64,000 nucleotides of DNA from Arthrobacter stackebrandtii. GTDB taxonomy: Bacteria; Actinomycetota; Actinomycetes; Actinomycetales; Micrococcaceae. A model generated the notes under the pieces. It made no database searches and was not told where the DNA came from. It saw nothing but the letters and a program-made list of their open reading frames with translations. The stretch lies in the NCBI RefSeq assembly GCF_017876675.1, contig NZ_JAGIOI010000001.1, forward strand, positions 248,001 to 312,000, written 5' to 3'. The position numbers and the translations under genes are program-made. Shown here piece by piece: positions 39,711 to 57,892 of the stretch. Every line of letters begins with the position of its first letter. Position 1 is the stretch's first letter.

Positions 39711-39721
39711 GCTCTTCTTTC

Positions 39722-40693
39722 CTAGACTGCGGCGCGCTGCTGCGGCGCCGCCACGGCGGCCAGCACGCGGGCCAGGACCACCTCGGCGGTGGCGCCGGCA
39801 AACTCGGCTTCGGGGTCGATCACCAGGCGGTGCGTCCACACGTACGGTGCCAGCTCCTTGACGTCGTCGGGCAGCACGTAGTTGCGGCCCTTCGCGGCGG
39901 CCCAGACCTTGGCGATGCGGACCATGGCGATGGCACCGCGGACCGAAACCCCGAGGCGGGTTTCCGGCGCGTTGCGCGTCTCCTCGCACAGGCGGGAGAT
40001 GTATTCCAGCACGGCAGCGTCCGTGTGGGTGGTGGCTGCCAGGTCAGCCATGTCGGCGACAGCCTGCGGGGTGATGATGGCCTGCATGGTGGAGGTGCGG
40101 TCACGCTGGCTGGCGCCCTGAAGCAGCTGGACCGTGGACGTGTGGTCCGGGTAGCCGATCGAAGTCTTGACCAGAAAACGGTCTAGTTGGGCTTCGGGCA
40201 GGCGGTAGGTACCCGCCTGCTCGATGGGGTTCTGGGTGGCCAGCACCATGAAGGGCCGGCCCGTCTCGTAGGTGGTGCCGTCCATGGTCACGCGGGACTC
40301 TTCCATGACTTCCAGCAGTGCCGACTGGGTCTTGGGTGAGGCACGGTTGATTTCATCGGCCAGCACGATCGTGGCGAAGATTGGGCCCTTGTGGAACTCA
40401 AACTCCTGGATCTTCTGGTCGTAGATCATGACGCCGGTGACGTCCGAGGGCAGCAGGTCGGGGGTGAACTGGATGCGCGAGTTCGTGCCCTTCACCGTGG
40501 CCGACAGGGCCCGCGCCAGCATGGTCTTGCCCGTGCCGGGAGCGTCCTCAAACAGGACGTGGCCTTCGGCCAGCATGGCCGAGATGGTCAGTGTGACCAC
40601 CTGCGACTTGCCCAGGATGGCCTGGCCAACGTTGGCCACCAGCTTTTCAAAGGTGCCTGCAAACCACGTGGCCTGCTCCGGTGTCATCGACAT
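39722..40693 (-). CDS. MoxR-family AAA+ ATPase
   Basis: This 323-aa AAA+ chaperone has Walker A GTGKT at residues 53-57 (EDAPGTGKTML), Walker B VLADEINRA at 110-118, and sensor and arginine-finger regions (MVLATQNPIEQ and PEAQLDRFLV). MoxR ATPases are thought to help mature protein complexes together with DUF58/VWA partners. It follows the giant Fn3 gene by 63 bp and starts the moxR-DUF58-transglutaminase series. A decayed copy of its first half lies at 47688-47957, a by-product of the tandem duplication upstream. Confidence 0.93.
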   Translation of the reverse strand: MSMTPEQATWFAGTFEKLVANVGQAILGKSQVVTLTISAMLAEGHVLFEDAPGTGKTMLARALSATVKGTNSRIQFTPDLLPSDVTGVMIYDQKIQEFEFHKGPIFATIVLADEINRASPKTQSALLEVMEESRVTMDGTTYETGRPFMVLATQNPIEQAGTYRLPEAQLDRFLVKTSIGYPDHTSTVQLLQGASQRDRTSTMQAIITPQAVADMADLAATTHTDAAVLEYISRLCEETRNAPETRLGVSVRGAIAMVRIAKVWAAAKGRNYVLPDDVKELAPYVWTHRLVIDPEAEFAGATAEVVLARVLAAVAAPQQRAAV

Positions 40694-40756
40694 GCGTTGT
40701 CTTCTTTCATTGTTGCGTTGGTCGTTTCTTGCATTGCAGTAAGAGATTGCATCGGA

Positions 40757-43700
40757 CTAGCAATGCGGAATGGGCTGGCCGCGGTCGGCACCACTGAAGG
40801 CATCCCAGCGCGCATACAGGCCATTGTTGGCGGAGTTGGGACCGGAAACTTGCCGATACCACTTCCCGGGATTCGAGCCATAAGGGCGGTCGATATAGCA
40901 GTTGGTAATCATGGTTTCGCCCCTGTTGAGCCAGTGCCCGCCCCGACACGAGCTGCCGGTCCAGTTGGTGCCGCTGGCTGGATCCATGCAGGTGTCGTCA
41001 GAGGAGTTGTACATGCTCCACTGAGTTACAGGTGGCGGCGGCGGCTTGGGTGGGCCGCTTGTCGGGCTCACGGAGACCACGGGACTGACATGGCCTACCG
41101 AGTTCACCGTACGTGCCTCGATCGTCACCGACTTATTGTAGGCGCCTGTGTCGTACCTGCCGCTGGCATTGCCAGGACGGTCCACCCACCCCTCGCCCGG
41201 GGCCTTCGTCTGGAGCATCTTTGTGTCCACGCCTACCGGATAAGTCCAGCTGTAGGTAACTGTGGTGTCGCCTTCTCCACCGGTGGGTCCCGGGGTCAGG
41301 CCGGGCGTCCCTGGGCTGCCGTATGGAACAACCGAGTTGGAAGATGCAGAGGCATCACTGTTGCCGGAAACGCCGCCGGCCGTGGCCCTGGCTTGAACAT
41401 TCGCAAACACAGCAGTTCCGTTGGGTGAAGACAGCGTCATGCCTGATCCGCCACAGGCGGCGACACCTGTGGAAAGCGACACGCAATAGCTGATCTCACT
41501 GGCGCCGAAGCCGTTCATCTGGGAGCCGTCATAAGGGGTGAAGGTCACCTGGACTTGGCCACCCGCGCCCCCCGTTCCGACGAGCGAGAGGGTAGGGGCC
41601 GACATCATAGGCAACTTGCTGACTGCCCGATACGGGTCGGAGCCCACACTGGCAGGCCCTACTCCGGCCTTGTTCGTGGCCACGACGCTGTAGCTGTACG
41701 GTTCCGTGGACGTTCCCACTGTGAAGGCTTGGCTGGTTGCACTGGTGGCCACAGCGGTGGGAGCCGCGCCGCCACCGGACTGGGTCACTGTGTAGGAGGT
41801 GATGGCGGCGCCGTTCTCAAACGGAATGTTCCAGCTGACGGCGACCTGGTTCTGGTTGCCCACCCGCGACTGAGGTGTCACCACAGGCTTCTCCGGCGCT
41901 GCCGGCAAGCCCGCAGGCACCACGATGGGTGAGTAGGGACTCCAGTCCGAGGGCGTAGGCGCATCGTTGAGCGCCTGGACCCTGAACTGGTATTCAGTGC
42001 CGTTGGCGAGCCCCTGCCAGGTCAGGGCGTTTCCGGTGACACCGACTTTTTGCGCGTTCTGACCGGCGGGGGCCGGAGAGATCTCCACATTGAAACTCTT
42101 GACGGCCGAGTACGCGCCCACGGGCGTCACCCAAGTGAAGGTAGCGGTTGTGTCACCAAATTCGGAGGTCGGGGTGGCGGGTGCATCGGGAATGCGGTCC
42201 GGGATAGCCACGAGGGACAGTGGCGAGGCATCGGAATCTCCCACCGCGTTGGTGGCCACCACGGCAAACTGGTACTCCATGGCGTTGGTCAGGCCCGTGA
42301 TAGTGCAGGTGTTGGTGTCGCACACCTGGGACCCGCCGGTCCAGTTCACCGTGTATCCGGTCAGCGGCGAGCCATTGTCGGCAGGCGGTTCCCAAGTGAG
42401 CAGAACTTCCTGGTCGCGCTCTTCAAGCACCTGGGGCTTCGTGGCCGTATCGGGCCGCCCCTTGACCGTTACCTTGATCTTGCCGTTGACATGGCGCTCT
42501 TCATCCTGCGTCTTGTCTTCAACGGTGTAGCTGACCAGGACTGTGCCCTTGTAGTTGGCATCCGTTTTGACAGAGACTGAGTCGTCCGTGTGGCTGACCG
42601 TGATGCCTTGGCTGTCAGTTTCAATCGTGGTTCCGACAACCTTCAGCGGGGTTTCCGGGAAGGGATTTACATCATTTTCCAGGACGTTGACGATCGTCTC
42701 TCGGCCCGCATGGGCATCTTCGACAACGTCGAGGTTGGCAACGGGCACGGGCTCGGAAGTAGAAGTTGCCTTCAGCTGGACGTCGGAGGTAACTGGATCG
42801 TTACTGCCGTCCGAGACGCTGATCTGCACCGTGGCCTTGGTTCCGACTTTGGTGCCTTTGGCCTGCTTGACGGTGAGCACTGTGCCCTTAAAGGTCACGT
42901 CAAAGTTGGCCGGTTCCTTGCTGACCATCTCAAACGTGAGCTTGTCCTTGTCGCCAGGATCCTTGTCCACCGCCATGGGGGCAACATCCAGCGTGACCGT
43001 CTCCTGCTGTGGAACTTCCAAGAAGGAACCGGTGAAGGTGGGAGAAGCGTTCTTCTTCTCTACTTCCTTCTTCTCTTCCTTCTTCTCCTCCGACTTTTCC
43101 TCCTTCTTTTCCTCTTCCTTCTTTTTCTCTTCGGGTGCCAGGCTCTCCTCGGGTGCTACTGGTTCGTCCTTGGCCTTTTCCTTAACGGGAGCCGGATGGA
43201 CCAGGGTCATGACCGTCAGTGTGGACTTGAGACCCTCGGGATCGTCCGGGCCGGTGCCGTCGGTGACTTCGAAGGTGATGGAACCCTTGCCGTAAAACTT
43301 GATGTCCGGGGTGTAACGCAGCTCGTTGCCGTCACCTTCAATGGTGTCCTTGCTGGGGGCACCGATCATCGAGACCTTGGCAGCCTCGGTAATCCTGGGC
43401 TTGCGCCCTTCACGGACTTGGACGTAGTCATTGAGTTTGAGCATGGAGCTTTCACCGGCTGTCAGCTCAATGACGTCCGTCTTCTTGAGAGTGGGGTACT
43501 GCTTATCCAAACCAGGCACCCAAACAACCGCTGTGGACGTCAATCCGTCTTGGTCGGTCAGCGTGTAAGGCACCAACTGCTCAGCTGGTGCCAGCTGAAC
43601 GCGGACGATTTGGGTCTTCTCGCCCGATTTCTCGTCCGGTACGGAGGCAACCGTTGCGGTGGTGCTCTCTGAGCCTGGTGCAGGCGCAACGGATACCTTG

Positions 43701-46700
43701 AGTTCGTCGGTGACACCGTCAGGGTCCGAATCGTTCTCCAAGACGGGGACGTCCACTGTATTCTTGCCCATCATCTGCTTGACAGTGACGCGATCGTCGC
43801 GGGCAATGGGCGCCTTCAACGGTGCCTCCGGGTCAACTGTCATGCGCACATTGCCGGTGGCGGTGGCCCCGAAGTTGTCGGTGGCCGTGTACATCATGGT
43901 GGCGATACCCGGTACAGCCGGGCTCGTCATGACGGCTTTGCCGTCGTCGTCGACCTCGGCGGTCATGCCCTCCGGCCCCTTAAAGCCGTCCTTGAGAAGG
44001 CCCAGGGAACCGCCGTCGGGATCGGTATCATTGAGCAGCACGTCAACGGCTACTTTTCGCTCCGGCCGCATGGTGATGTAGTCATCTTCTGTGACAGGCG
44101 GGTGGTTCATGTTCAGCGGCTGCACCACGCCGACTTCGACGCGTCCGATGGACTCGGCACCAAGCCGGTCCCGGACTCGGTAGGTGAAGGCGTCTGTACC
44201 GGCTGAGCTCTCGCTGGCCGTGTACATGATGAAGCCATTGCCGATTTCGGTGGTACCCAGTGACGCACCCGTGTCGATACCCACGAGCTCGACAGAGTCG
44301 CCGTCGGGGTCAATGCCGTTCAACGGCACGGGAATGCGCACCTTGTCGCCGGCAATGACGCGGCCAGTGAGGTTCTTGGCAACCGGCGGCTGGTTGTGTT
44401 CGGGGTCGGCAGGCACGATCGTGATGGTCACCTGCGCGGAGTTGTATTGCCCCGTGCTGTTGGTGACCCGGTAAACACCGTTGACGGTCTTGGGAGTGGG
44501 GCCGGCGATGAAACGCAGCTCGTTCCTGTCTGTGAAAAGCTTGCCCAATTCGGGTTCGGGCATCTCCGTCACCTCAGGGGATTTGAGGGTTTCGCCGTTG
44601 GGGTCGATGTCATTGTCCAGGACGGGAATGTTGACCACATCGCCCACCCGGACTTTGGCTTCGTCGGGTTCCACACGGGGGGCCTTCAACTTGTCGGGGG
44701 CCGGAATGCGGACCACTGACACTTCGCCGACGGCGCTGCCGGCACCGTTGGCGATGGTGTATTTGAAGTTGATGGTGTCTTTGAGCCCACGCACATCCGT
44801 GATTTTCAGGATGTTGCGTTCAATGATGGTCACAGAAATCGGCGCACCTCCAGGCAGTTCTGCCGACTGGACCACCAAGACACCGCCAGAGGGATCACTG
44901 TCATTGCCCAAGACATCCACCAGAACCGAACCGCCCGAAGGCAGCATGGCCAGGTCCTTCACGGCAACTGGCAGAGCCTGGTCGTCCGGTTCCTCGACGT
45001 CCACACGAATGAGTCCAGTGGCACTCATGGGTCCGTTGGTCACCTGGTACTCCAGGTAGACAGGCCCTGCCACCTTTGAGGTGAAGGTGACGGTGCCCTG
45101 GTCGGTGATCTTGGAGATCTGTGTATTCGCGAGTGGCTGAACGCTGGCAAGCCGCAGGGCGCGCCCGGATGGATCCATGTCGTTGAGCAGCGGGGAGAGC
45201 ACCACGGGCTCTCCCACGATTGCCCGGGCGAAGTCTGCGTTGGCCACCGGAGGCACCGTGCCGGCCGCCTTCACATTGACCTTGACCTTAGTTTCCGTGA
45301 CGGCGACGCCGTCGGACACCGTGACAGTCATGGTCTTGGGGCCGATTTCCTCACCGTCATCGGTGTAGTGCAGCTGCCCGTCGGGAGTCGTCTTAATGAC
45401 TGCTGAATCATCGTCTGACACGGCACCGCGCAGGTAAATGTCGTCGCCATCGGGGTCGATCCATTCCAGCAACACATTCTGCTTCATGGTCTTGCCCTGC
45501 TCCACCACCAGGATCTGGTCACGCATGGCGTAAGGGGCGGAATTTTCAGATTCCGGGATGATCTTGACGTTAACCGGGGCACCGGCCGTACCCCCACGCC
45601 CATCATTGGCCAGATACTCAAATTGGCCGGATCCGGCCTGATCGGCGGGCACATCAATCTGAAGCCCCGTGCCATTGTAAATGGATGTCACCGCACCAAT
45701 GCTGGGGTTTGCCGCCGGCTGCGCAACAGTCAGCACGTCACCGTCGGGGTCGGAGTCATTGAACAGCACAGGCAAGATGGTCGTCTTGCCCGCACGCACG
45801 CCAAAGGAATCCGGCGTGGCCAGCGGCGGCCGGTTGGGCTTGGTGCGGTCAGGCAGGGAGTTGACCACGTTCGGATCGGCCGATTCCTCCTCAGCATCAT
45901 CGGACTTGGTGGTCTTGGACTTCAGGTCATCCCAGTTGTTGACCAGCTGCATGTTCTGGTTGACAAGCCACACGTTGCCGGTGTTGATGTCGTTCAGGAC
46001 CACGACGTCGCGGTTCTTTCGGAAAACAAACGTGGCCTTTGCACCGGCGTCGGGGATGTCAATGAAGTCTGCGCCGCCATTGCAGGAAAGCACGTACTTG
46101 TTAGCTCCAGACCAGGCACCGTGCACACAACCGTTCTGAATCACCGGAGCTGCCGGGACCCCGCCAGTCGGGAGCGCAAGCACCGTGGCAGGCTTGCCAT
46201 CCAGCGGCTGGATAACCATCCCGGCCGAGGTTCCAAGTGCAACAAAGTCTCCCTCGCTGCTCGCTTGGGCGAGCTGACCGCCGTCGGGCTTCTCAACCTC
46301 AACCACCTTGTTCCCAGGCAAAAAGAGCTTGCCCTCCTCAGCGGAGAACGCGACGGGCTTGCCACCGGCAACCGTGATCTGCAGGTCCACCACGCCGGCC
46401 ATGCCATCCACCGCGGCGCGCTCCTGGGACGTGACAACGCCATTGGAGTCGACCTTCGTAGTGACGATCTCACCGGCCTTGGCATCAGCGGAAAAAATAG
46501 TGTCATCGGGGGCCGTGACCGAGACAGGCGTGCCGGCACCGGTGATGATCGGCTCGGCTTCGTCCGTGAAGGCCTGCACGCCGGCATTGCTCACTGCCCA
46601 GACCTTGCCCTGATTGGGATCGGTCAGCGCAACAATGTTGGTGCCCTGGGAGGCGTACTTGCCACCGCCGAGGTTGGTTTCCGATTCCATGGCCATCAGC

Positions 46701-47020
46701 GGAACACTGACCGTGTTCAGGAGCGAGCCTGAATCGGAGCTCATAAAGACGTTCTCGGCGTTCTGGATGACATCAAAGTTGGTGGTGGTGGCCGTGAATC
46801 CGCCGTCGAGTTCCTTGGCCTGGTTATTCAAGTGACCCACAAGGCCATCGGCACGGTTGGTCACCCAGACACTGCCGTCATTGAGATCGACGTCCGCAGT
46901 GGCGAAACCCGGATACACCACAGCGCCCGTGACCACTGCGGCAGAAAGCGCAATGGCGACAGAAGCCGTCAGAACCTGCTTTTTACTCGTGGACTTGGAG
47001 AACAGAGCGTTCAATGCCAT
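40757..47020 (-). CDS. Giant cadherin-like/Fn3 surface protein, copy A
   Basis: This 2087-aa protein has a short cytoplasmic N-terminus and one membrane helix (about residues 14-38), then an extracellular part. Residues about 40-380 look like a beta-propeller. At least eight Ig/cadherin-like repeats follow, each with an NDxDPxG calcium-type motif (for example LFNDSDPDGD and ENDSDPDG). A Lys/Glu-rich linker lies near DNA 43040-43170, then more repeats and at least three Fn3 domains (VLLTWEPPADNGSPLTGYTV). The C-terminal domain of about 90 residues has Cys pairs and a GKWYRQVSG segment like SH3-type modules. ATG 47020 with AAGG is preferred to TTG at 47053. moxR follows. Adhesion or cell-surface architecture is inferred. 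Confidence 0.88.
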   Translation of the reverse strand: MALNALFSKSTSKKQVLTASVAIALSAAVVTGAVVYPGFATADVDLNDGSVWVTNRADGLVGHLNNQAKELDGGFTATTTNFDVIQNAENVFMSSDSGSLLNTVSVPLMAMESETNLGGGKYASQGTNIVALTDPNQGKVWAVSNAGVQAFTDEAEPIITGAGTPVSVTAPDDTIFSADAKAGEIVTTKVDSNGVVTSQERAAVDGMAGVVDLQITVAGGKPVAFSAEEGKLFLPGNKVVEVEKPDGGQLAQASSEGDFVALGTSAGMVIQPLDGKPATVLALPTGGVPAAPVIQNGCVHGAWSGANKYVLSCNGGADFIDIPDAGAKATFVFRKNRDVVVLNDINTGNVWLVNQNMQLVNNWDDLKSKTTKSDDAEEESADPNVVNSLPDRTKPNRPPLATPDSFGVRAGKTTILPVLFNDSDPDGDVLTVAQPAANPSIGAVTSIYNGTGLQIDVPADQAGSGQFEYLANDGRGGTAGAPVNVKIIPESENSAPYAMRDQILVVEQGKTMKQNVLLEWIDPDGDDIYLRGAVSDDDSAVIKTTPDGQLHYTDDGEEIGPKTMTVTVSDGVAVTETKVKVNVKAAGTVPPVANADFARAIVGEPVVLSPLLNDMDPSGRALRLASVQPLANTQISKITDQGTVTFTSKVAGPVYLEYQVTNGPMSATGLIRVDVEEPDDQALPVAVKDLAMLPSGGSVLVDVLGNDSDPSGGVLVVQSAELPGGAPISVTIIERNILKITDVRGLKDTINFKYTIANGAGSAVGEVSVVRIPAPDKLKAPRVEPDEAKVRVGDVVNIPVLDNDIDPNGETLKSPEVTEMPEPELGKLFTDRNELRFIAGPTPKTVNGVYRVTNSTGQYNSAQVTITIVPADPEHNQPPVAKNLTGRVIAGDKVRIPVPLNGIDPDGDSVELVGIDTGASLGTTEIGNGFIMYTASESSAGTDAFTYRVRDRLGAESIGRVEVGVVQPLNMNHPPVTEDDYITMRPERKVAVDVLLNDTDPDGGSLGLLKDGFKGPEGMTAEVDDDGKAVMTSPAVPGIATMMYTATDNFGATATGNVRMTVDPEAPLKAPIARDDRVTVKQMMGKNTVDVPVLENDSDPDGVTDELKVSVAPAPGSESTTATVASVPDEKSGEKTQIVRVQLAPAEQLVPYTLTDQDGLTSTAVVWVPGLDKQYPTLKKTDVIELTAGESSMLKLNDYVQVREGRKPRITEAAKVSMIGAPSKDTIEGDGNELRYTPDIKFYGKGSITFEVTDGTGPDDPEGLKSTLTVMTLVHPAPVKEKAKDEPVAPEESLAPEEKKKEEEKKEEKSEEKKEEKKEVEKKNASPTFTGSFLEVPQQETVTLDVAPMAVDKDPGDKDKLTFEMVSKEPANFDVTFKGTVLTVKQAKGTKVGTKATVQISVSDGSNDPVTSDVQLKATSTSEPVPVANLDVVEDAHAGRETIVNVLENDVNPFPETPLKVVGTTIETDSQGITVSHTDDSVSVKTDANYKGTVLVSYTVEDKTQDEERHVNGKIKVTVKGRPDTATKPQVLEERDQEVLLTWEPPADNGSPLTGYTVNWTGGSQVCDTNTCTITGLTNAMEYQFAVVATNAVGDSDASPLSLVAIPDRIPDAPATPTSEFGDTTATFTWVTPVGAYSAVKSFNVEISPAPAGQNAQKVGVTGNALTWQGLANGTEYQFRVQALNDAPTPSDWSPYSPIVVPAGLPAAPEKPVVTPQSRVGNQNQVAVSWNIPFENGAAITSYTVTQSGGGAAPTAVATSATSQAFTVGTSTEPYSYSVVATNKAGVGPASVGSDPYRAVSKLPMMSAPTLSLVGTGGAGGQVQVTFTPYDGSQMNGFGASEISYCVSLSTGVAACGGSGMTLSSPNGTAVFANVQARATAGGVSGNSDASASSNSVVPYGSPGTPGLTPGPTGGEGDTTVTYSWTYPVGVDTKMLQTKAPGEGWVDRPGNASGRYDTGAYNKSVTIEARTVNSVGHVSPVVSVSPTSGPPKPPPPPVTQWSMYNSSDDTCMDPASGTNWTGSSCRGGHWLNRGETMITNCYIDRPYGSNPGKWYRQVSGPNSANNGLYARWDAFSGADRGQPIPHC

Positions 47021-47136
47021 CTGAAACCTTATGAATTGTGCGAACCAGGACAACCGGAGTTATCCACCCCATGGCGATGCGCCCCACGACATCACCTAGG
47101 CAATCTTAGCGGGTTGCTCCATAGGATGGCCTAATG
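46596..47136. repeat. 541-bp identical segment, copy at the 5' end of Fn3 gene A
   Basis: This segment is identical base for base to 53878-54418 by line-by-line comparison. It spans about 116 bp upstream of the start and the first 425 bp of the coding region. Bases immediately outside it differ. Confidence 0.95.
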
Positions 47137-47157: not shown

Positions 47158-47175
47158 ATGGGGAGTTCTCCCCAT
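47158..47175. promoter_or_regulatory. Conserved 18-bp palindrome upstream of Fn3 gene A
   Basis: ATGGGGAGTTCTCCCCAT is a perfect palindrome 138 bp upstream of the start. The same sequence stands at the same place before copy B (54440-54457), although flanking bases differ. It may be an operator, or a terminator for the small peptide gene. Confidence 0.55.
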
Positions 47176-47345: not shown

Positions 47346-47474
47346 CACTCATGGGTGGGGTGATATGTCCATGTTCCTCCTCTGAAAAAAAGCCGGGCAT
47401 CGGGAACAGTCCTTGAAAAACTGCAGAGCACCCTCATTTCATTCGGCGACCACAGCCCTCGACAGTGCAAAAAC

Positions 47475-47690
47475 GTAGGGGTGGGAATCAGGCTTAGCAG
47501 GCGGTGACAGGGCCGGAAGATCAGTGGAATTGGTTTAGCTTGGCTCATTTATGGCCATGTCCGCCGCGAGCATGGTCGGGGAAACTCTTCATCTCCGGAG
47601 ATCCCAGCCTCGGAATGACAGCCCTGGCGAAGGAGGCCTGCATCTCCCCGCCTTCGCCGGTTTGGCCTTTGCCGGCACGTGACTGCCCGC
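47475..47690 (+). pseudogene. 5' fragment of a LuxR-family ATP-binding regulator
   Basis: The plus strand here encodes LFISGDPSLGMTALAKEACISPP, which aligns with LVVSGDPGVGKTALVQRACDSP of the intact regulator at 54944. DNA similarity runs from before that gene's start to about its codon 72. The Walker A Lys is Met, and the start codon is lost. It ends at about 47688, where moxR-like sequence begins: this is the duplication junction. Confidence 0.8.
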
Positions 47691-47957
47691 TCGATCAGGC
47701 TCCGGGTAGCCAACACCTCGAACGGGCGGCCCGTCTCATAAGTGGCGTCATACATGGTCACGGGGACTCTTCCAGGACCTCCGGCAGCGCCGACTGAATC
47801 TTGGGCGAAGCCCCGCTATTCTCATCAGCCGCCATGATCGTGGCGAAGATGGACCCTGGTGGAGCTCACTCCCGTGTCTTCTGGTCATAAACCATGACAT
47901 CAGTGTCGTCAGAAGGAGCCAGTAAACAAGCATCTTTTACCGGTGTCATCGATCTAC
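47688..47957 (-). pseudogene. moxR pseudogene fragment
   Basis: The minus strand carries moxR-like DNA. From the right: a start region like that of moxR (GATGACACCGG), a deletion of about 75 codons that removes Walker A, then APSDDTDVMVYDQK (moxR: LPSDVTGVMIYDQK) ending in TGA. Then come frame-shifted remnants of KGPIFATIVLADE and ASPKTQSALLEVMEE, and YETGRPFEVLATRSLIE (moxR: YETGRPFMVLATQNPIE). It stops at about 47688, which aligns with 40216-40221 in moxR. Confidence 0.85.
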
Positions 47958-48089
47958 GTTGACTTCGTTCATTGTTGCGTCGTTCGTGACAGGATCGCGG
48001 AGGCATCCGCAGATATCCGGGGCGCGTGTCTGGCCGCAGCGAATCTTGTCCCGGTCGGGGCCAGGAGGACGTCCTCCATGGCCCCGACG

Positions 48090-51000
48090 CTAACTACAGA
48101 ATGGCATCCCGCTTGGCGGGGCCTTCACATTTGTGGTGTCTGCCTTCACATAGGGATAGCTGCTGTAGCCACCGGTGGTGATGCGGTACCACTTATTGCC
48201 GCTGCTGCCACTGCCCCAATACTTCCAGCAGCTGACCTCGACCGGCGTATTGGCGTTCAGCCACTGCGACGAGCAGGAGGGACCGGCGCTTGAATAGTGG
48301 TCACCTCCAGCGGCTGTTTCCAGGCAAGTCCGGTATGGAGTGGCACTGACGGTCCAGCTGGTGGGAGCCGGCGGCGGCGGTTTCGCACCGGCGTAGGCAT
48401 TGACGGCGGGCGAAGCGGCACCGCAGCCTCCGGCGTTGCAGGCTCTGACCTTGAGGTTTGCACCGTCGCCATAGCCAGATGTCCCCGTGGAGTACTCCAG
48501 GGCCATGCCGCGACTTTCCCACCCGGCCCCGTTCAGGCTGCTCTCGTAGCGCGTGACGGCGCGACCATTATTTGGAGTGGCGGTCCACGTCCAGCGCACG
48601 GTCTTGATGCCTTCTGAAGCCGTATGGCCCGATACCGACGTCTGCGCAGGAACACCATAGGGATTGACGGCATTTGAGGGAGCGGATGCATCCCCTGCAG
48701 AATCGATACCGTCCGCCGAGGCCACAGCCCAGACGTTGCCTGTGACGTCAGCACCGTTGGGCGAGGACAGCACGGCGCCTGGCTGAACACCGCATTGATT
48801 TGCCCCCGTTGAAAGGCTGGCACAGTAGGTCACCTCATTGGCTGCATAGCCGCTGAGCTGCGTGGCATCCAGCGGCGTGTAGCTGAGCTGTACCTGGCCG
48901 CCAGCCGCGTCCGTGCCCACGAGTGCAAGGCTCGGCGGATTCATCATGGCCACCTTGCCTACCGCGCGTTGCGGCGTTGACGCTGGGCTGGACTCACCGG
49001 TGCCGGCCTTGTTGATGGCCACAACGCTGAACGTGTAGGGCTCGGTGGAGTTGCTGACGGCGACGGTCTGGCTGTTTACCGTCGGCTGGTAGGTGGTGGG
49101 TGCCACGCCGCCGCCGGACTGCGTCAGGATGTAGGAGCTGATCGGCGCGCCGTTGTTGAACGGCACATCCCAGCTGACGCCGATCTGGTTCTGATTTCCA
49201 ACGCGTTCCAGCACCTGCACCACGGGAGCCTGCGGGGCTGCAGGCAGCCCCGCAGGTGTGACGATGGCGGAATACTGGCTCCAGTCGGACGGCTGCGGCG
49301 CGTCATTCACGGCCTGCACGCGGAATTGGTAGTCCGTGCCGTTGGCCAGGCCCGGCCAAGTGAGCGTGTTGCCGGTGACGCCGGTGCGCTGCGCGTTCTG
49401 GCCTGCCGGTGCAGGTGAAATTTCAATGTTGAAGCTCGTGACAGCGGAGAACTCACCCACTGGCGTGACCCAGTTCAGGGTGATGGCCTGGTCACCGAAT
49501 TCGGTGGTGGGCGCCGCAGGCGCATCGGGCATGCGGTCGGGAATTGCCACGACAGACAGAGGTGAAGCGTCCGATTCCCCCACCGCGTTGGTGGCGACGG
49601 CGCTGAACCTGTATTCCGTTGCATTGGTCAGGCCGGTGATGGTGCAGGTGTTGGTTTCACAGGCCTGCGAACCACCGGTCCAGTTCACCGTGTAACCGGT
49701 CAGTGGAGAGCCGTTGTCGGCTGGCGGATCCCACTTGAGGAGCACCGCCTTGTCCCGTTCCTCTAGGATCTGCGGCTTGCTCGGCGCATCGGGTCGCCCC
49801 TTGACCGTGATTTTGACCTTGCCGTTGACGTAGCGGTCCGAGTCGGCGGTCTTGTCCTCCACCGTATAGCTGACCACGACGGTGCCCTTGTAATCGGGAT
49901 CCGTTTGCACCGTGACTTCATCCTCCGAGTGGGTCACGACGATGCCCTTTGAGTCCGTCTCGATGGAGGTGTCGACCACCTTCAGCGGGGTGTCCGGGAA
50001 CGGGTTAACATCATTCTTCAACACCTTCACGACCTCGGCGCGGCCAGCGTGGGCGTCCTTGACGAGATCTTGGTTGGCCACAGCCAGCGGCTCGGACGAG
50101 GATGTGGCTGTCAGGGCTACATCAGCCACGACGGGGTCGTTGGAACCGTCGCTGACGCTAACCTGGACGGTGGCCTTGGTGCCTACCTTAGTGCCCGTGC
50201 CGGCCTTGGCGGTCAAGACTGTGCCCTTGAAGGAGACGTCAAAGTTAGCAGGGACCTCGCTGACCATCTCAAACTTGAACTTGTCCTTGTCGCCGGGGTC
50301 CACGTCGAAGGCCAGGGGACCCACGTCGAGGGTGACGGTCTCCTGTTGCGGCACCTCCAGCATGGAACCGGTGAACGTGGGAGGAGTGTTCTTTTTCTCC
50401 TCTTCCTTCTTTACTTCTTCTTTCTTCTCCTCCTCCTCGGGAGCCTTGCTCTCTTCGGGGGCAACGGGTTCGTCCTTGGCCTTTTCCTTCACCGGCGCCG
50501 GATGAACCAGCGTCATGACGGTCAACGTCGACTTCAGGCCCTCCGGATCGTCCGGGCCGGTGCCGTCGGTTACCTCGAAGGTGATGGAGCCCTTGCCGTA
50601 GAACTTGATATTCGGGGAATAACGCAATGCGGCGCCGTCGCCTTCGATGACATTGTCGGTGGGAGCCCCGACCATGGAGATCTTCGAGGCTTCCGTGAGC
50701 CGCGGCGAGCGTCCGTCACGGACCTGCACATAGTCGGAGAGTTTCAGCACGGCGCTTTCGCCGGCCGTCAGCTCGATGACATCGTTCTTCTTCAGGATCG
50801 GGTACTGCTTGTCCAGTCCCGGGACCCAGATGACTGCCGTGGACGACAGTCCGTCCTGGTCCGTGATGGTGTAGGGAATCAGCTGCTCGGCCGGGGCCAG
50901 CACCACGCGGACCACCCCCGCAGAGGTCACCGTCGCGGTGGTGTCGTTGGCACCTGGTGCCGGCTCAACGGAAACCTTGAGCTCGTCTGTGACACCGTCC

Positions 51001-54000
51001 GGGTCTGCGTCATTGTCCAGAACGGGGACATCCACAGTGTTCTTCCCCATCATCTGCTTGACCGTGACGCGGTCGTCGCGGGCGATCGGTGCCTTCAACG
51101 GCGCTTCCGGGTCTACCGTCATGCGCACATTGCCGGTGGCGGTGGCGCCGAACTTGTCGGCGGCCGTGTACATCATGGTGGCGATGCCGGGTTCAACGGG
51201 GCTGGTCATGACAGCCTTGCCCTTGTCGTCGACCTTGGGATTCATGCCTTCGGGACCCTTGAAGCCGTCGGCCACCAAGCCGAGGGATCCGCCATCGGGG
51301 TCTGAATCATTGAGCAGGACGTCCAGGGCAACATTGCGGCCCGGACGGATGGTGATGTAGTCGTCCTCCGTGACCGGCGGGTGGTTCATGGTTAGCGGCT
51401 GGGCCACGCCCACGTCTACGCGCGCGATGGATTCGGCGCCGAGCCTGTCCCGGACACGGTAGGTGAAGGAATCAGTGCCTGCAGAGCTTTCGCTGGCTGT
51501 GTAGAAGATGAATCCGTTGCCGATCTCGGCAGTGCCCAGGGCGGGTCCCTTGTCAATGCCCACGAGCTCGACGGAGTCGCCGTCAGGGTCGATGCCGCTC
51601 AGGGGCACGGGGATGCGCACCTTTTCGCCTGCCACGACGCGCCCGGTCAGGTTCTTCGCCACGGGCGCCTGATTGTGCTCCGGGTCTGCGGGCACGATCG
51701 TGATGGTGACGGGCGCGGAGTCGTACTGTTCGGTGCTGTTGGTGACGCGGTACACGCCTTTGACCGTCTTGGCCGTGGGGCCGGCGATGAAGCGCAGCTC
51801 GTTGCGGTCCGTGAAGAGCTTGCCGAGTTCGGCGTCGGGCGTCTCCACCACCTCGGGGCTCTTGAGCTGCTCACCATTGGGGTCGATGTCGTTGGCAAGC
51901 ACCGGGATGTTGACGACGTCGCCAACCCTCACCTTCGCTTCATCGGGCTCGACGCGCGGCGGCTGCAGCTTGTCGGCCGCCGGAATTCTGACGACGGAAA
52001 TTTCACCATCAACACTGCCCACGCCGTTGGAGATTGTGTATTTGAGGCTGATCGTATCCTTGAGCCCGCGCAGATCCGTCAATTTAATAATGTTGCGGTC
52101 AATGATCGTCGCAGAAATGGGGGAACCCCCCGGCAATTCGACCGACTGAACCACGAGGACACCGCCGGCGGGGTCGGAGTCATTGCCGAGGACATCGACG
52201 AGGACCGAGCCACCGGAGGGCAGCATGGCCAGGTCCTTCACGGCAACGGGCAGGCCCTGCTTGTCTGATTCCTGCACATCGACACGGATGAGGCCCGTGG
52301 CACTCATGGGTCCGTTGGTCACCTGGTATTCCAGGTACGCGGGACCTGCCACCTTTGAGGTGAAGGTGACGGTTCCCTGGTCGGTGATCTTGGAGATCTG
52401 GGCGTTGGCCACGGACTCTACGCTGGCCAGGCGAAGTGACCGCCCGGACGGGTCCTGGTCGTTGCGCAGCGGGGCCAGCACAACAGGCTCTCCGACGATG
52501 GCACGGAAGAAGTCTGCGTTGGCGACGGGGGGAACCGTACCGGCGGCCTTGACGTTGACCTTGATCTTGGTTTCCGTGACGGCCATGCTGTCGGACACTG
52601 TGACCGTCATGGTCTTGGGGCCGATTTCCTCGCCATCATCGGTATAGCTCAACTGCCCATCAGGTGTTGTCTTGATGACAGCGGAGCCGTCATCGGACAC
52701 GGCGCCGCGGAGGAAGATGTCATCGCCGTCGGGGTCGATCCATTCCAACAGCATGTTCTGCTTCATGGTCTTGCCCTGCTCCACCACCAGGATCTGGTCC
52801 CGCATGGGATAGGGAGCGTTGTTCTCGGCCGGCGGCACGATGCGGACGCTCACAGTGGCGCGCGCGGAACCACCGCGGCCGTCATTGGCAATGTAATCGA
52901 ACTGTGCCGCACCGGCTTGGTCGTCCGGCACGTTGATCTGCAGCCCCGTGCCGTCATAAATGGATGAGACGGCACCAACGGACGGATCGACGGCGGGAGC
53001 CTCCACCGTCAGCACGTCGCCGTCGGGGTCGGAGTCGTTGAACAGCACAGGCAAGATGGTCGTCTTGCCCGCACGCACGCCAAAGGAATCCGGGTTGGCC
53101 AGCGGCGGCCGGTTGGGCTTGGTGCGGTCAGGCAGCGTACTGACGACGTTGGGGTCGGCCGATTCCTCCTCAGCTTCATCGGACTTGGTGGTCTTGGACT
53201 TCAGGTCATCCCAGTTGTTGACCAACTGCATGTTCTGGTTGACAAGCCACACGTTGCCGGTGTTGATGTCGTTCAGGACCACGACGTCGCGGTTTTTGCG
53301 GAACACGAACTTGGCCTTGGCGCCGGCGTCGGGGATGTCGACGAAGTTGCCGCTGCCGCCACAGGACAGCACGTACTTATTGATGCCTGCCCAGGCCGCG
53401 TGGACGCAGTTGTTCTGCACCACGGGTGCAGCGGGGGTGCCGGCATCGGGCAGCCCCAGCACCGTGGCGGCCGAGCCGTCCAGCGGCTGGGTGAGCAGCG
53501 CCGTCGCCGTCCCCAGTGCCACAAAGTCTCCCTCGCTGCTCGCTTGGGCGAGCTGTCCGCCGTCGGACTCCGGCACCTCAACCACCTTGTTGCCGGGCAG
53601 GAACAACTTGCCGGCCTCGGCGGAAAAGGCGACAGGCTTGCCGCCGGCGACCGTGATCTGCAGGTCCTCCAGGCCGGAAATGCCGTCGGCCTTGGCCCTG
53701 TCCTGCGACTTGACGGTGCCGTTGGCGTCCATGGTGGTGGTTATGATTTCGCCGGTTTTGAGGTCGGCCGTGTAGATGGTGTCGTCGGGCGCCGTGACGG
53801 AGACGGGCGTGCCCAGACCGGTGAGGATGGGGGCGGTGGATTCATCGCTGAAGCCCTGGACCGCCGCGTTGTTCATGGCCCAGACCTTGCCCTGATTGGG
53901 ATCGGTCAGCGCAACAATGTTGGTGCCCTGGGAGGCGTACTTGCCACCGCCGAGGTTGGTTTCCGATTCCATGGCCATCAGCGGAACACTGACCGTGTTC

Positions 54001-54302
54001 AGGAGCGAGCCTGAATCGGAGCTCATAAAGACGTTCTCGGCGTTCTGGATGACATCAAAGTTGGTGGTGGTGGCCGTGAATCCGCCGTCGAGTTCCTTGG
54101 CCTGGTTATTCAAGTGACCCACAAGGCCATCGGCACGGTTGGTCACCCAGACACTGCCGTCATTGAGATCGACGTCCGCAGTGGCGAAACCCGGATACAC
54201 CACAGCGCCCGTGACCACTGCGGCAGAAAGCGCAATGGCGACAGAAGCCGTCAGAACCTGCTTTTTACTCGTGGACTTGGAGAACAGAGCGTTCAATGCC
54301 AT
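48090..54302 (-). CDS. Giant cadherin-like/Fn3 surface protein, copy B
   Basis: This 2070-aa paralogue of the gene at 40757-47020 has the same domain order: membrane helix, propeller-like part, tandem NDxDPxG Ig/cadherin-like repeats, a shorter Lys/Glu-rich linker (DNA about 50390-50500), further repeats, Fn3 domains and a Cys-containing C-terminal module (GNKWYRITTGGY). The first 142 codons are identical to copy A at DNA level. The middle is close but clearly diverged, and the C-terminal few hundred residues differ strongly, so the two may bind different partners. The ATG at 54302 has an AAGG ribosome binding site. Downstream lies only a moxR pseudogene, so copy B no longer has its own chaperone gene. 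Confidence 0.88.
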   Translation of the reverse strand: MALNALFSKSTSKKQVLTASVAIALSAAVVTGAVVYPGFATADVDLNDGSVWVTNRADGLVGHLNNQAKELDGGFTATTTNFDVIQNAENVFMSSDSGSLLNTVSVPLMAMESETNLGGGKYASQGTNIVALTDPNQGKVWAMNNAAVQGFSDESTAPILTGLGTPVSVTAPDDTIYTADLKTGEIITTTMDANGTVKSQDRAKADGISGLEDLQITVAGGKPVAFSAEAGKLFLPGNKVVEVPESDGGQLAQASSEGDFVALGTATALLTQPLDGSAATVLGLPDAGTPAAPVVQNNCVHAAWAGINKYVLSCGGSGNFVDIPDAGAKAKFVFRKNRDVVVLNDINTGNVWLVNQNMQLVNNWDDLKSKTTKSDEAEEESADPNVVSTLPDRTKPNRPPLANPDSFGVRAGKTTILPVLFNDSDPDGDVLTVEAPAVDPSVGAVSSIYDGTGLQINVPDDQAGAAQFDYIANDGRGGSARATVSVRIVPPAENNAPYPMRDQILVVEQGKTMKQNMLLEWIDPDGDDIFLRGAVSDDGSAVIKTTPDGQLSYTDDGEEIGPKTMTVTVSDSMAVTETKIKVNVKAAGTVPPVANADFFRAIVGEPVVLAPLRNDQDPSGRSLRLASVESVANAQISKITDQGTVTFTSKVAGPAYLEYQVTNGPMSATGLIRVDVQESDKQGLPVAVKDLAMLPSGGSVLVDVLGNDSDPAGGVLVVQSVELPGGSPISATIIDRNIIKLTDLRGLKDTISLKYTISNGVGSVDGEISVVRIPAADKLQPPRVEPDEAKVRVGDVVNIPVLANDIDPNGEQLKSPEVVETPDAELGKLFTDRNELRFIAGPTAKTVKGVYRVTNSTEQYDSAPVTITIVPADPEHNQAPVAKNLTGRVVAGEKVRIPVPLSGIDPDGDSVELVGIDKGPALGTAEIGNGFIFYTASESSAGTDSFTYRVRDRLGAESIARVDVGVAQPLTMNHPPVTEDDYITIRPGRNVALDVLLNDSDPDGGSLGLVADGFKGPEGMNPKVDDKGKAVMTSPVEPGIATMMYTAADKFGATATGNVRMTVDPEAPLKAPIARDDRVTVKQMMGKNTVDVPVLDNDADPDGVTDELKVSVEPAPGANDTTATVTSAGVVRVVLAPAEQLIPYTITDQDGLSSTAVIWVPGLDKQYPILKKNDVIELTAGESAVLKLSDYVQVRDGRSPRLTEASKISMVGAPTDNVIEGDGAALRYSPNIKFYGKGSITFEVTDGTGPDDPEGLKSTLTVMTLVHPAPVKEKAKDEPVAPEESKAPEEEEKKEEVKKEEEKKNTPPTFTGSMLEVPQQETVTLDVGPLAFDVDPGDKDKFKFEMVSEVPANFDVSFKGTVLTAKAGTGTKVGTKATVQVSVSDGSNDPVVADVALTATSSSEPLAVANQDLVKDAHAGRAEVVKVLKNDVNPFPDTPLKVVDTSIETDSKGIVVTHSEDEVTVQTDPDYKGTVVVSYTVEDKTADSDRYVNGKVKITVKGRPDAPSKPQILEERDKAVLLKWDPPADNGSPLTGYTVNWTGGSQACETNTCTITGLTNATEYRFSAVATNAVGESDASPLSVVAIPDRMPDAPAAPTTEFGDQAITLNWVTPVGEFSAVTSFNIEISPAPAGQNAQRTGVTGNTLTWPGLANGTDYQFRVQAVNDAPQPSDWSQYSAIVTPAGLPAAPQAPVVQVLERVGNQNQIGVSWDVPFNNGAPISSYILTQSGGGVAPTTYQPTVNSQTVAVSNSTEPYTFSVVAINKAGTGESSPASTPQRAVGKVAMMNPPSLALVGTDAAGGQVQLSYTPLDATQLSGYAANEVTYCASLSTGANQCGVQPGAVLSSPNGADVTGNVWAVASADGIDSAGDASAPSNAVNPYGVPAQTSVSGHTASEGIKTVRWTWTATPNNGRAVTRYESSLNGAGWESRGMALEYSTGTSGYGDGANLKVRACNAGGCGAASPAVNAYAGAKPPPPAPTSWTVSATPYRTCLETAAGGDHYSSAGPSCSSQWLNANTPVEVSCWKYWGSGSSGNKWYRITTGGYSSYPYVKADTTNVKAPPSGMPFCS

Positions 54303-54418
54303 CTGAAACCTTATGAATTGTGCGAACCAGGACAACCGGAGTTATCCACCCCATGGCGATGCGCCCCACGACATCACCTAGGCAATCTTAGCGGGTTGCT
54401 CCATAGGATGGCCTAATG
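53878..54418. repeat. 541-bp identical segment, copy at the 5' end of Fn3 gene B
   Basis: Identical to 46596-47136 (offset 7282). It includes the upstream region and the first 142 codons. Confidence 0.95.
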
Positions 54419-54439
54419 AGAAATATGTAGATCGCACAA

Positions 54440-54457
54440 ATGGGGAGTTCTCCCCAT
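54440..54457. promoter_or_regulatory. Conserved 18-bp palindrome upstream of Fn3 gene B
   Basis: ATGGGGAGTTCTCCCCAT, identical to 47158-47175 and at the same distance from the start codon (138 bp). It lies about 107 bp after the stop of the small peptide gene. Confidence 0.55.
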
Positions 54458-54563: not shown

Positions 54564-54800
54564 CTACCACTCGGGCACCCATGCCGGGGCGTCCGCGCCG
54601 GTGCCGGTCAGCGTGTCACAGCGGACCAGTTGGTCCCCGATCCTCTCCATCGGACAATGGCTGGACGGCGGGTATTGAAGGGCTCCGCCGGAGCCGTTTT
54701 CATCCAGCCTCGCGGAGGCCGGTGACGGGATGAGCAGGACCAGGAGCAATGCGGCGGCGGCGGGGCCGGCCAACCGGGAGGTGGTGCGTGGTGCAAACAT
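54564..54800 (-). CDS. Small secreted peptide, 78 aa, two Cys in the mature part
   Basis: The ATG at 54800 has an AAAGG ribosome binding site 8 bases away. The product has a typical Sec signal peptide (RLAGPAAAALLLVLLIPSPASA), with cleavage likely after ASA. A mature part of about 48 residues follows, beginning RLDENGS, with two Cys (CPMERIGDQLVRCD) that could form a disulfide loop. I recognise no family. It lies between the giant Fn3 gene and the divergent LuxR-type regulator, and it is retained only in the right half of the duplication; the left copy is decayed. It could be a signal or a partner of the Fn3 protein, which is inference from position. Confidence 0.6.
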   Translation of the reverse strand: MFAPRTTSRLAGPAAAALLLVLLIPSPASARLDENGSGGALQYPPSSHCPMERIGDQLVRCDTLTGTGADAPAWVPEW

Positions 54801-54943
54801 TGTCTTGCCTTTCAGCGATAGTTGGCTTGATAGCTCCACGCTCCTCCGCCGGAGGCGGCCGGTCATCGGGGACAACTCCTGAGAATGCCGCAATAAACCC
54901 TCATTTTTTAGGTGCCCGCCGGCCGCACCGGTGCGAAACTTGA

Positions 54944-57892
54944 ATGGTGGGTGGGGAAGAAGGCGTTGACGGCGCAGATATTGTGGGCAGGTCAAGGGAG
55001 CTGGGCTTCCTGGGCTCGTTTCTCGCCGGTGCCGCAGCGGGCACGGCCGGGACCCTCGTCGTCTCCGGCGACCCCGGCGTAGGGAAGACCGCCCTTGTAC
55101 AGCGCGCGTGCGACTCCCCCGCCTTCACCGGCTGGGTCTTCACCGGTGCGTGCCTGCCGCTGTCTTCGACAACAGTCCCATTTCTTGCGCTGCGGCAGGC
55201 GTTCCGCACCGCGCCCAGCTTCGACGGCGACGCCCGCCCCACCCTGCCCAAGGCCGGCGAACCGCCGAACGACGCCCCGGTTGCCATCGACACGTGGATG
55301 GATGAGCTGTGCAGCCGCCGTCCCGTGGCGCTGGTGGTGGACGACCTGCAGTGGGCCGATGAAAGCACCCTGGACGTGCTGATGTACCTCATTGCCGGCC
55401 CCGCAGAACGGCCGTTGGCCATCATCGCCACCTTGCGCGACGGCGGGGTGTCCGACATCCACCCGCTCCAGCGCTGGCTGGCCGACATCCGCCGCATGCC
55501 CCGGATCGGCTGGCTGCACCTGGGCCCGCTGGACCGCCTGGACACCGGCACCCAGCTGGGCCACCTGCTCGGCACCGCCCCGCACCAGTCACTGGTGCAG
55601 GAAGTATTTGAGCACACGGCCGGAAACGCCTACCTCAACAGGCTGGTGGTTGCGGGGCTGGACTCCGGCGCGCGGCACCTGCCCACCGAGCTGCCCGCCG
55701 ACCTCAAGGGTGCGGTGCTGCGTTCCTGGCGAACCTTGTCCGACGACGCCCGGCAGCTCACGCAGCTGCTGTCCGTGGGTGGGCGGCCGCTGCCCTCGGC
55801 GGACATCAGTGCAGTGGCGGCGCTGGACGGCAGCCATGGCGCGGTGCTGGCGCTGCTGTACGAGGCCGCCGACGCAGGGATCATCGAATCCAGCACGGAG
55901 GGCACCCACTGGTGGTTCCGGCATCCGCTGATTGCCGAGGTCCTGCAGCAGGGACTCGACGAGGGCGAGCGGACGCGCTGGCATGCCCTTTTTGCCTCAC
56001 TCGGGGAATCAACGCTGGACCACCAGGCGAACCCCGACTTTGAATCGCTGGTGGCCCTGGCCGACCACCATTTTGCGGCCGGCCACACGGACGCCGCCTA
56101 CAACAGGGCGCTGCAGGCCTCCGCCGCAGCGGGCCATGCGGGAGGAACGGCGGAGATGCTGCGCCTGCTGCGGCGTGCTGTGGCCCTGCGGGACCAGCTG
56201 CCCGGGGCTGCGGAAAGTCCGGAAGCCCTGTGGGACAGGCTCCGGGCAGCCGCGGAGGACACCGGAGCGCAGGAAGAGGAACTGGAGGCCGTCGAGGCGC
56301 TGCTGGAGGAAACGGACAGCGTGCAGCGGCCCCTGGATGTTGCCGAGCTGTTGGTCCGGCGCGCCCTCCTGCGCTTCTCCACCGGGCGGGAGTTCCTCGC
56401 CCGCGGCGAGATGCAGCGTGCCGTCCGCCTGGCCGGCACAGATCCCGGGAGCTGGCAGTACGCCTATGCCCTGGCCGAGCTTGCCCACGCCGGGCTGTGG
56501 AAGGATGACCCGCTGGCACCGGAAAATGCGCTGCTGGCGCTGGCTGCCGCCACGGACTCGGGGAACCCACGGGCCCTGTCCTATGCCCTGACCGCCAACT
56601 CCATGGCGGCGCTGCTGGCGGGGCGGCCGGAGGAGGCCCGGGCACTGGCTGAGCGGGCAGCGGGCCCCGCCGCGGAGGCCAGGGACTTCTGGGCACTGCT
56701 GCACGCCACCATCTGGCGGGCCAACGCAACGGAGGCGTGGTCCAGCCAGGCCTTCGCCGACCTCATGCGGGACGGGCGCTGGCTGCTCGCCTCGCTCGGC
56801 TCCCCCCACGCCTACCTCGCCAAGATGGCCGCTGACGAAGCCAGCAGCTACCTGGCCATCGGCCGCTGGAAGGAGTGCGGACTGGCACTGCGCGTGGCAC
56901 TGGGCTCGGATCCGGGCGCGATGGGCGACGTCGCGGCCCGATTGGCCGCCGCCCGGCTGGCGGCCTGGCAGGGACGGCAGGGCGAGGCGGAAGCCCACCT
57001 GGCCCGGGCCGAGGAACTGTTCTCGCAGAAGTCTGAATTCAACAATCTCAGCTTCGCGGCAGTCCGAGCCGAGGTCCTCCTCGCTGCGGACCGACCCGGC
57101 CCGGCCTATGCCGCGGCCATGGCCGGCATTGAGACGGAGGGCCAGCCGCCCACCATGTGTGAATGGCTCCTGCCCCTTGCCGCCCGCGCGCTGGCGGACC
57201 TCGCCCAATCGGCCAGGGACGACGGCGAGTCCCCCGCCGAGCTGCTGGCCCTCCTCCACCGGCTGCTGGGAAATTTCCCGGCCGCGTTCCAGGAATCGGG
57301 CACCGCAACGGAACTGTACACCGCACAGACCGCGGCCTTCGACATGCTCTACCGTGCCGAGGCAGGGAGGGCCCGCGGCAGTGCGGGCAACGCCCGGGAG
57401 TGGATCCAGACGGCCGACGCCTGCCAGGCGGCGACGCTTCGCTGGGAGGAGGCGTACTCCTGTTGGCGGGCAGCCGATTCACTGTTGCTGCACGGCCATT
57501 CGCTGCGCCCGCTCGCTGCCACCGTGCTCCGGCGCGGGCTGGCCCTGGCCGAGGAACTGCAGGCGCTGCCCATTGTGGCGCATCTTCACACCCTTGCGGC
57601 CGGTGCCCGGATCGCCGCCCCCAGCCGGTTGGACGCCCCCACCGCTGTGCCGGCACAGCTGCCGGGCCTGACCCGGCGCGAGCGTGAGATCCTCGGCTTC
57701 GTTGTGGCCGGACACACTTACGCCGAAATTGCCCGGCACCTCGTGATCAGCGAAAAAACCGTCAGCTCGCACATCTCCAGCCTGCTGCGCAAGACCGGTG
57801 CCTCCAACCGGATCGACCTCTCCCGGCTCGCCACCCGGTCCGCCGCCGGTCCCGGGCCGGGGGCAGCGCCAGAGGACGGGCCCGCCGGCTGA
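54944..57892 (+). CDS. LuxR-family regulator with N-terminal ATPase domain (LAL type)
   Basis: This large ATP-binding LuxR regulator is 982 aa. An AAA-type NTPase domain has Walker A SGDPGVGKTAL (41-51) and Walker B ALVVDDLQWADE (129-140). A long alpha-helical, TPR-like middle (about 400-880) is rich in Ala and Leu. The C-terminal LuxR helix-turn-helix (about 905-965) reads LTRREREILGFVVAGHTYAEIARHLVISEKTVSSH. Such proteins activate transcription upon binding ATP and an inducer. It is divergent from the small peptide and giant Fn3 genes and a 5' fragment of it was duplicated with them, so it is a candidate activator for them. No strong ribosome binding site precedes the ATG. Confidence 0.9.
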   Translation: MVGGEEGVDGADIVGRSRELGFLGSFLAGAAAGTAGTLVVSGDPGVGKTALVQRACDSPAFTGWVFTGACLPLSSTTVPFLALRQAFRTAPSFDGDARPTLPKAGEPPNDAPVAIDTWMDELCSRRPVALVVDDLQWADESTLDVLMYLIAGPAERPLAIIATLRDGGVSDIHPLQRWLADIRRMPRIGWLHLGPLDRLDTGTQLGHLLGTAPHQSLVQEVFEHTAGNAYLNRLVVAGLDSGARHLPTELPADLKGAVLRSWRTLSDDARQLTQLLSVGGRPLPSADISAVAALDGSHGAVLALLYEAADAGIIESSTEGTHWWFRHPLIAEVLQQGLDEGERTRWHALFASLGESTLDHQANPDFESLVALADHHFAAGHTDAAYNRALQASAAAGHAGGTAEMLRLLRRAVALRDQLPGAAESPEALWDRLRAAAEDTGAQEEELEAVEALLEETDSVQRPLDVAELLVRRALLRFSTGREFLARGEMQRAVRLAGTDPGSWQYAYALAELAHAGLWKDDPLAPENALLALAAATDSGNPRALSYALTANSMAALLAGRPEEARALAERAAGPAAEARDFWALLHATIWRANATEAWSSQAFADLMRDGRWLLASLGSPHAYLAKMAADEASSYLAIGRWKECGLALRVALGSDPGAMGDVAARLAAARLAAWQGRQGEAEAHLARAEELFSQKSEFNNLSFAAVRAEVLLAADRPGPAYAAAMAGIETEGQPPTMCEWLLPLAARALADLAQSARDDGESPAELLALLHRLLGNFPAAFQESGTATELYTAQTAAFDMLYRAEAGRARGSAGNAREWIQTADACQAATLRWEEAYSCWRAADSLLLHGHSLRPLAATVLRRGLALAEELQALPIVAHLHTLAAGARIAAPSRLDAPTAVPAQLPGLTRREREILGFVVAGHTYAEIARHLVISEKTVSSHISSLLRKTGASNRIDLSRLATRSAAGPGPGAAPEDGPAG

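Follow-up and report, generated by a model that had tools for sequence, protein, structure and literature searches.

Tandem duplication of a giant Fn3 gene in Arthrobacter stackebrandtii and the likely exchange of its C-terminal tips

A PFNA-like cluster with two giant Fn3 genes

The PFNA operon of Bifidobacterium is composed of pkb2, fn3, aaa-atp, duf58 and tgm (PMC6803598). The bifidobacterial Fn3 protein has been linked to adhesion or cytokine binding (PMC8430577, PMC10688814, PMC12607495), and its C-terminal region has been described as its most variable part (PMC12607495). Here we describe a cluster of similar make-up in a 64,000-bp stretch of the A. stackebrandtii genome, called the window (G000:C1:248001-312000; G+C content 66.8%), in which two giant genes for Ig-like (Big_9)/Fn3 proteins, copies A and B, lie side by side. 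The window genome, G000, is a single 4.43 Mb contig; other genomes are likewise designated by G numbers, and feature coordinates are collected in Table 1.

Downstream of the Fn3 genes and on the same strand lie moxR (AAA_3, E 1e-61), a DUF58 gene (E 3e-13), a transglutaminase gene (Transglut_core, E 4e-22), genes for an RDD-domain protein and a PP2C phosphatase, an open reading frame (ORF) without a Pfam family and, at the far end of the cluster, a Ser/Thr kinase gene. The window therefore contains the genes by which a PFNA operon is recognized, namely a kinase gene (pkb2), a giant Fn3 gene with moxR beside it, and downstream duf58 and transglutaminase genes. It is like PFNA in the clustering of a kinase, a giant Fn3 protein, a MoxR AAA+ ATPase, DUF58 and a transglutaminase (PMC6803598) and in the variability of the Fn3 C-terminal region (PMC12607495). 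Unlike PFNA, it has fn3 twice in tandem, with a different tip type on each copy; it also has additional genes for PP2C and RDD-domain proteins, and a luxR-family regulator gene stands beside fn3. By gene make-up and published descriptions, we regard the cluster as resembling the PFNA operon. In modular bacterial adhesins and polymorphic surface proteins, a conserved stalk ends in a variable distal domain. The window genes are like these in their conserved N-terminal part, Ig-like repeats, variable C-terminal end, and duplication with apparent gene conversion, and unlike them in that no known family matched the window tips and no free-standing tip cassette was seen.

The duplicated segment and its junction

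The original prediction for this DNA held that a segment of ~7.47 kb had been duplicated in tandem, with ends inside moxR (~40,216) and inside the luxR-family gene (~55,160) and a junction still readable at about 47,688. BLASTN of the whole window against itself, and of two halves against each other, confirmed the duplication by a series of collinear matches. The Fn3 genes match over 5.5 kb (41664-47180 with 49003-54462, 79% nucleotide identity, self-BLASTN). On the moxR side, 40215-40450 matches 47685-47916 (77%, E 7e-45, half against half) and 40678-40725 matches 47940-47987 (85%, self-BLASTN), and on the luxR side 47224-47687 matches 54691-55158 (67%, E 8e-32, half against half). The match on the luxR side extends as far as 47687/55158 and that on the moxR side starts from 47685/40215, which supports both predicted ends and the predicted junction: the duplicated segment of ~7.47 kb runs from inside luxR to inside moxR, with the scar at ~47,687. 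In right-to-left order, the locus consists of luxR (+), Fn3 B (-), moxR remnant (-), luxR remnant (+), Fn3 A (-) and moxR (-). Because a tandem duplication gives the remnants in this order and orientation, ends inside moxR and luxR explain both of them, and the two boundary-gene remnants are joined as such an event with a readable junction would join them. Both remnants contain stops in all three frames of their own strand and have lost the start codon or segments, while intact genes stand at the outer ends, as had been claimed.

Other parts of the prediction stood only in part. The matches are collinear through the flanks, but the diagonal, which was expected to be continuous, is interrupted at three places, where the moxR remnant lacks ~200 bp internally, where the upstream region is 189 bp shorter in A than in B, and where the Fn3 3' ends are almost unalignable. 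The two intervals are nearly equal in length, as stated, at 7472 bp (541+6297+634) and 7471 bp (402+6246+823), but the argument drawn from this equality fails, since the parts of the two units differ in length and the agreement is a fortuitous result of compensating indels. Short homology at the breakpoint was found between intact luxR and moxR (about GCCTGC, 6 nt, judged by eye), but the 13-mer quoted for it, CTGCCCGCTCGAT, is the junction's own sequence.

The whole junction DNA was matched only in G000. Of the other 22 genus genomes, 17 gave matches to just the moxR or luxR part, and the remaining 5 gave none. The single-copy relative that had been predicted was found, in that G016 has the arrangement luxR-Fn3-moxR and G012 has Fn3-moxR with a truncated luxR lacking about the first 700 residues. 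G012 has no counterpart of window positions 54769-57055, most of luxR, and its flanking matches (L031 5833-5848) overlap by 16 bases, as a deletion between short repeats would give. The duplication in itself is ordinary and well supported.

Fn3 genes of the window family are present in 19 of 23 genus genomes; G004, G010 and G021 showed no family match and G018 only a weak Fn3-domain match. In all 19 stretches read, moxR adjoins the Fn3 gene or array. A single copy was found in three of these (G005, G012 and G016) and two or three neighbouring copies in 16, including the window; luxR was seen beside Fn3 in 6 of the 19, again including the window, in stretches that vary in length. A relative at E <= 1e-60 was present in 58 of 120 sampled family genomes, and at least 14 genomes of other genera carry two N-terminal matches within about 6.5 kb (e.g., G097, G082, G124, G055 and G105). 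One Fn3 gene each in G012, G014, G011 and G020 is split by a frame break, through decay or sequencing error.

Histories of stalk, 5' end and tip

The protein tree of 38 Fn3 rows contains a clade I of 20 rows, a clade II of 16, mostly moxR-side copies, and two rows outside, with the deepest fork open. Copies A and B both fall in clade I with a support of 100 (Shimodaira-Hasegawa-like approximate likelihood ratio test), and the window pair has thus not descended from the common pairing of one clade I and one clade II copy. Clade II copies were not seen in G000, G012, G016, G005, G011 or G020, and G011 and G020 also hold several clade I copies. The best stalk match of A is B (81%), and that of B is G012 (92% at the amino acid level, over a G012 piece from codon ~502). 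Synonymous distances, calculated after removal of 170 codons at the start and 300 alignment columns at the end, were 1.01 for A-B, 1.03 for A-G012, 0.64 for B-G012 and 0.93-1.17 to G016. With an A-B distance of ~1.0, the duplication is old, not recent, and the end branch of the moxR remnant (0.34-0.38) fits an old event.

The 5' identity and the tip differences reported next go beyond the original prediction. A and B share a tract of 541 bp without a single difference, of which 458 bp belong to the ORFs and 83 bp to the sequence upstream; the next longest exact match is 69 bp, and the stalk elsewhere is ~77% identical. This tract suggests that a recent gene conversion probably ran across the 5' ends of both copies. 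Identity is also raised at codons 361-420 (94%), perhaps an older conversion tract.

The tips, defined as the last 100 residues, were clustered in 37 rows at distance cuts of 0.6, 0.7 and 0.8. At 0.6 and 0.7 this gave type M with 7 rows (including A), L with 10 (including B), W with 12 (including G012 and G016) and V with 3; five further rows were single at 0.6, of which two pair at 0.7, and at 0.8 V and this pair join W. The nine other L rows all sit on clade II stalks, and W tips occur mostly on clade I stalks and also on two of clade II (G003_2 and G017_2). The best match of the A tip is G013_2 (72%), and that of the B tip is G019_1, a clade II gene (63%). The tip trees agree with the types and reject the stalk groupings A+B (p 6e-41), B+G012 (p 7e-7), B+G012+G016 (p 5e-9) and A+B+G012+G016 (p 6e-114). 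The tip types thus do not track the stalk, and from this conflict between trees we infer that recombination has moved them. In all 15 typed multi-copy genus genomes the copies all differ in tip type; G008, whose second tip is untyped, stands outside this count and by tree place would hold L plus W, giving 16 of 16.

When 197 family genomes of 32 genera were searched, the A tip query found 19 genomes in 6 genera, the B tip 20 genomes in 4 genera and the W tip 15 genomes in 6 genera; the weaker hits include matches across types, as of the A tip query to B (E 9e-6). Two genomes of other genera, G061 and G054, have W-like tips with 64% and 63% identity to the W query, and the C-terminal third of the window B protein, a different query, is 45% and 43% identical to the genes of these two genomes. 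Nine invariant residues are common to seven tips of types M, L and W, suggesting that these types are probably homologous. Among the 57 tip hits listed, 55 lie in frames of 1,684-2,440 amino acids and none is a free-standing cassette, the other two lying in frames of 455 (a broken G020 gene) and 293 amino acids. Pfam searches of the tips at E up to 1 returned only Bin2_C (E 0.12) and DUF317 (E 0.18), one member each, and a search of PDB sequences returned one chain, 1f53 (E 0.62), none of which is credible; NCBIfam found only tandem-95 repeats in the whole Fn3 proteins. A hydrophobic stretch is visible by eye at the N terminus of the Fn3 copies. We predict that the encoded proteins are adhesin-like stalks, probably exported, whose outermost end would carry exchangeable tips for binding.

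Competing explanations and other features of the locus

We consider it probable that the locus arose by tandem duplication, followed by gene conversion of the 5' ends and exchange of the tips. Judging from the scar, recombination with little homology would have duplicated, in an ancestor, the segment from inside luxR to inside moxR. Each of the two resulting Fn3 genes would have come with an upstream region, and the partial copies of luxR and moxR left where the units meet would later have decayed; from the sister lineage G012, copy A has most likely since disappeared. Gene conversion would recently have made the upstream region and the first ~150 codons of A and B identical, and the 3' ends would have given way to tip modules that differ between the copies, A receiving type M and B type L, which is otherwise found on the other paralogue clade. 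With two tandem copies, a cell might show two specificities on one stalk design.

Several results weigh against this sequence of events. The stalk DNA tree includes 14 of the 20 clade I rows and has the topology (G016,(A,(B,G012))), B+G012 being supported at 100/99. The approximately unbiased (AU) test rejected A and B as sisters with all positions (p 0.0018) and third positions (p 0.0048), but not with first and second positions (p 0.084). B+G012 was also recovered by the tree of the N-terminal part (92/96, with the placement of A and G016 open) and by site counts in 14 blocks, where two of A, B and G012 agree against the third plus G016 (B+G012 175, A+B 79, A+G012 81); the protein tree leaves the branching order of the three open. 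The copies are thus not each other's closest relatives, as a recent local duplication would make them, B being nearer to G012; this lowers the case for a recent duplication, not that for a duplication. Either the duplication preceded the split and A was lost in G012, or A came from near kin. Since the branch of A is long, we do not treat the sister question as closed, and dating by the moxR remnant was abandoned because its 236 columns are too short to place it (AU p 0.47 and 0.49). As for the tips, shuffling gave a mean of 11.0 genomes with all tips different and reached 15 in 100 of 20,000 shuffles, a test that counts each of the five unclustered tips as its own type and is only a guide, since relatedness among the genomes, with near identity in the case of G001 and G022, keeps the tip counts from being phylogenetically independent; with the 0.8 clusters, G003 and G006 drop and the count is 13 of 15. 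The surface location and tip function are predictions, and AlphaFold models of the tips were poor (pLDDT, the predicted local distance difference test, 52 and 38) and unfit for a fold search. In Bifidobacterium, neither two Fn3 domains alone nor the C-terminal part alone bound TNF-alpha, whereas both together did (PMC10688814), which, if the systems are comparable, argues against a tip that binds by itself. Finally, the PFNA study reports episodic positive selection on bifidobacterial PFNA genes and no evidence of recombination (PMC6803598).

The position of A outside B+G012 would also be expected if luxR-Fn3-moxR DNA of a related strain had recombined beside a resident copy, leaving the same scar. 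A 60-codon patch of A (codons 1441-1500) and the A tip match M-type genes of other species best, as such an import might produce. However, A groups with B, G012 and G016 at full support, so that the donor must be very close kin, and no such donor was found among the 23 genus genomes searched; we consider an import unlikely. The selection reported for PFNA, and the nine residues invariant across the seven tips, would suit fast divergence of one domain without any exchange of modules. This seems to us distinctly improbable, because tip types are common to distant stalks at an identity above that between stalk orthologues, because the tree tests reject the stalk groupings, and because divergence would not bring the B tip close to clade II tips. 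Neighbouring copies in 16 of the 19 Fn3-bearing genus genomes, and tandem pairs in other genera, raise the question of whether A and B are ancient clade I and clade II paralogues lying beside unrelated debris. The stalk tree contradicts this, with both copies in clade I, and the similarity of the remnants to luxR and moxR reaches all the way to the ends that were expected; we reject this origin and give it hardly any weight. An assembly artefact is less credible still: repeats of this size can be misjoined and the locus was judged from assembled sequence, but the assembly consists of one contig, the 5.5 kb match between the copies contains 21% differences, and the decayed remnants at the junction are peculiar to this genome.

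A wider proposal, to which we give somewhat less than an even chance, is that the PFNA-like cluster of Micrococcaceae-like actinobacteria may be a locus of tip diversification, in which gene conversion would keep the 5' ends identical and recombination would place a different module of an undescribed C-terminal set on each copy, no genome carrying the same type twice. Stalk, 5' end and tip of one giant protein have separate histories, a natural experiment of more interest than the duplication. For the MoxR-DUF58-transglutaminase-Fn3 cluster this offers a testable idea, that of variable binding ends directed toward partners such as other cells, phages or surfaces, and it draws attention to a tip domain that Pfam does not cover. 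In titles and the beginnings of abstracts, we found no paper on tip exchange in an Fn3-moxR cluster, none joining Arthrobacter, the Fn3 domain and tandem duplication, and none joining gene conversion, adhesin and tip domain.

Table 1. Positions of the genes, remnants, tracts and dyads in the window
Feature	Position	Strand	Basis or remark
Ser/Thr protein kinase	29458..31230	-	Pkinase E 4e-39
ORF between PP2C and kinase genes	31227-33653		no Pfam family at E 1e-5
PP2C phosphatase	33343..34524	-	Pfam
Transglutaminase-core protein	35950..38697	-	mechanical ORF, overlaps DUF58; true start probably later
DUF58 protein	38379..39989	-	mechanical ORF, overlaps moxR; true start probably later
Intact moxR (AAA_3)	39722..40693	-	left duplication end inside, ~40215
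Fn3 copy A, giant Ig-like (Big_9)/Fn3 protein	40757..47053	-	ORF list; Pfam Big_9 and fn3
C-terminal tip of A, type M	40760..41062	-	tip clustering and tip trees; no Pfam family
Identical tract in A, 541 bp	46596..47136	-	exact-match comparison with B
Dyad upstream of A, perfect, ATGGGGAG-TT-CTCCCCAT	47158..47175	.	genome dyad scan
Decayed luxR 5' remnant	47469..47687	+	start codon lost; homology extends upstream to 47224
Duplication junction	47685..47688	.	ends of luxR-side and moxR-side matches
Decayed moxR 5' remnant	47685..47987	-	77% and 85% pieces, ~200 bp internal loss
Fn3 copy B	48090..54335	-	ORF list; Pfam fn3 and Big_9
C-terminal tip of B, type L	48093..48395	-	tip clustering and tip trees
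Identical tract in B	53878..54418	-	exact-match comparison with A
Dyad upstream of B, same as that of A	54440..54457	.	genome dyad scan
Intact luxR-family regulator (AAA_16 and GerE)	54944..57892	+	right duplication end inside, ~55158

Counted from TTG, copy A encodes 2098 and copy B 2081 amino acids. The start of A is probably the ATG at codon 12 (47020), as suggested by the G016 frame, which opens at codon 8, and that of B is probably codon 12 (54302). A 64-amino-acid ORF at 54749-54943, directly before luxR, is by its position the peptide gene mentioned in the original prediction.

The dyads upstream of A and B, both of the form ATGGGGAG-NN-CTCCCCAT, are free of mismatches, and no further such copy was reported in the genome (4.43 Mb). 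GGGGA..TCCCC dyads precede an Fn3 gene in G012, G014, G006, G011, G005, G020 and G017. A role as a LuxR-specific operator is not supported, since the dyad is also present where no luxR was seen in the stretch (G005, G011, G017 and G020). A terminator after copy B was considered from a self-match at 48054-48088, which the hairpin scan missed, and nothing was drawn from it. Hairpins with arms like those of the dyads follow one Fn3 gene in G007, G008, G019, G014 and G020. Away from the duplicated segment, short direct repeats are present at 24043-24285 (93% and 89%).

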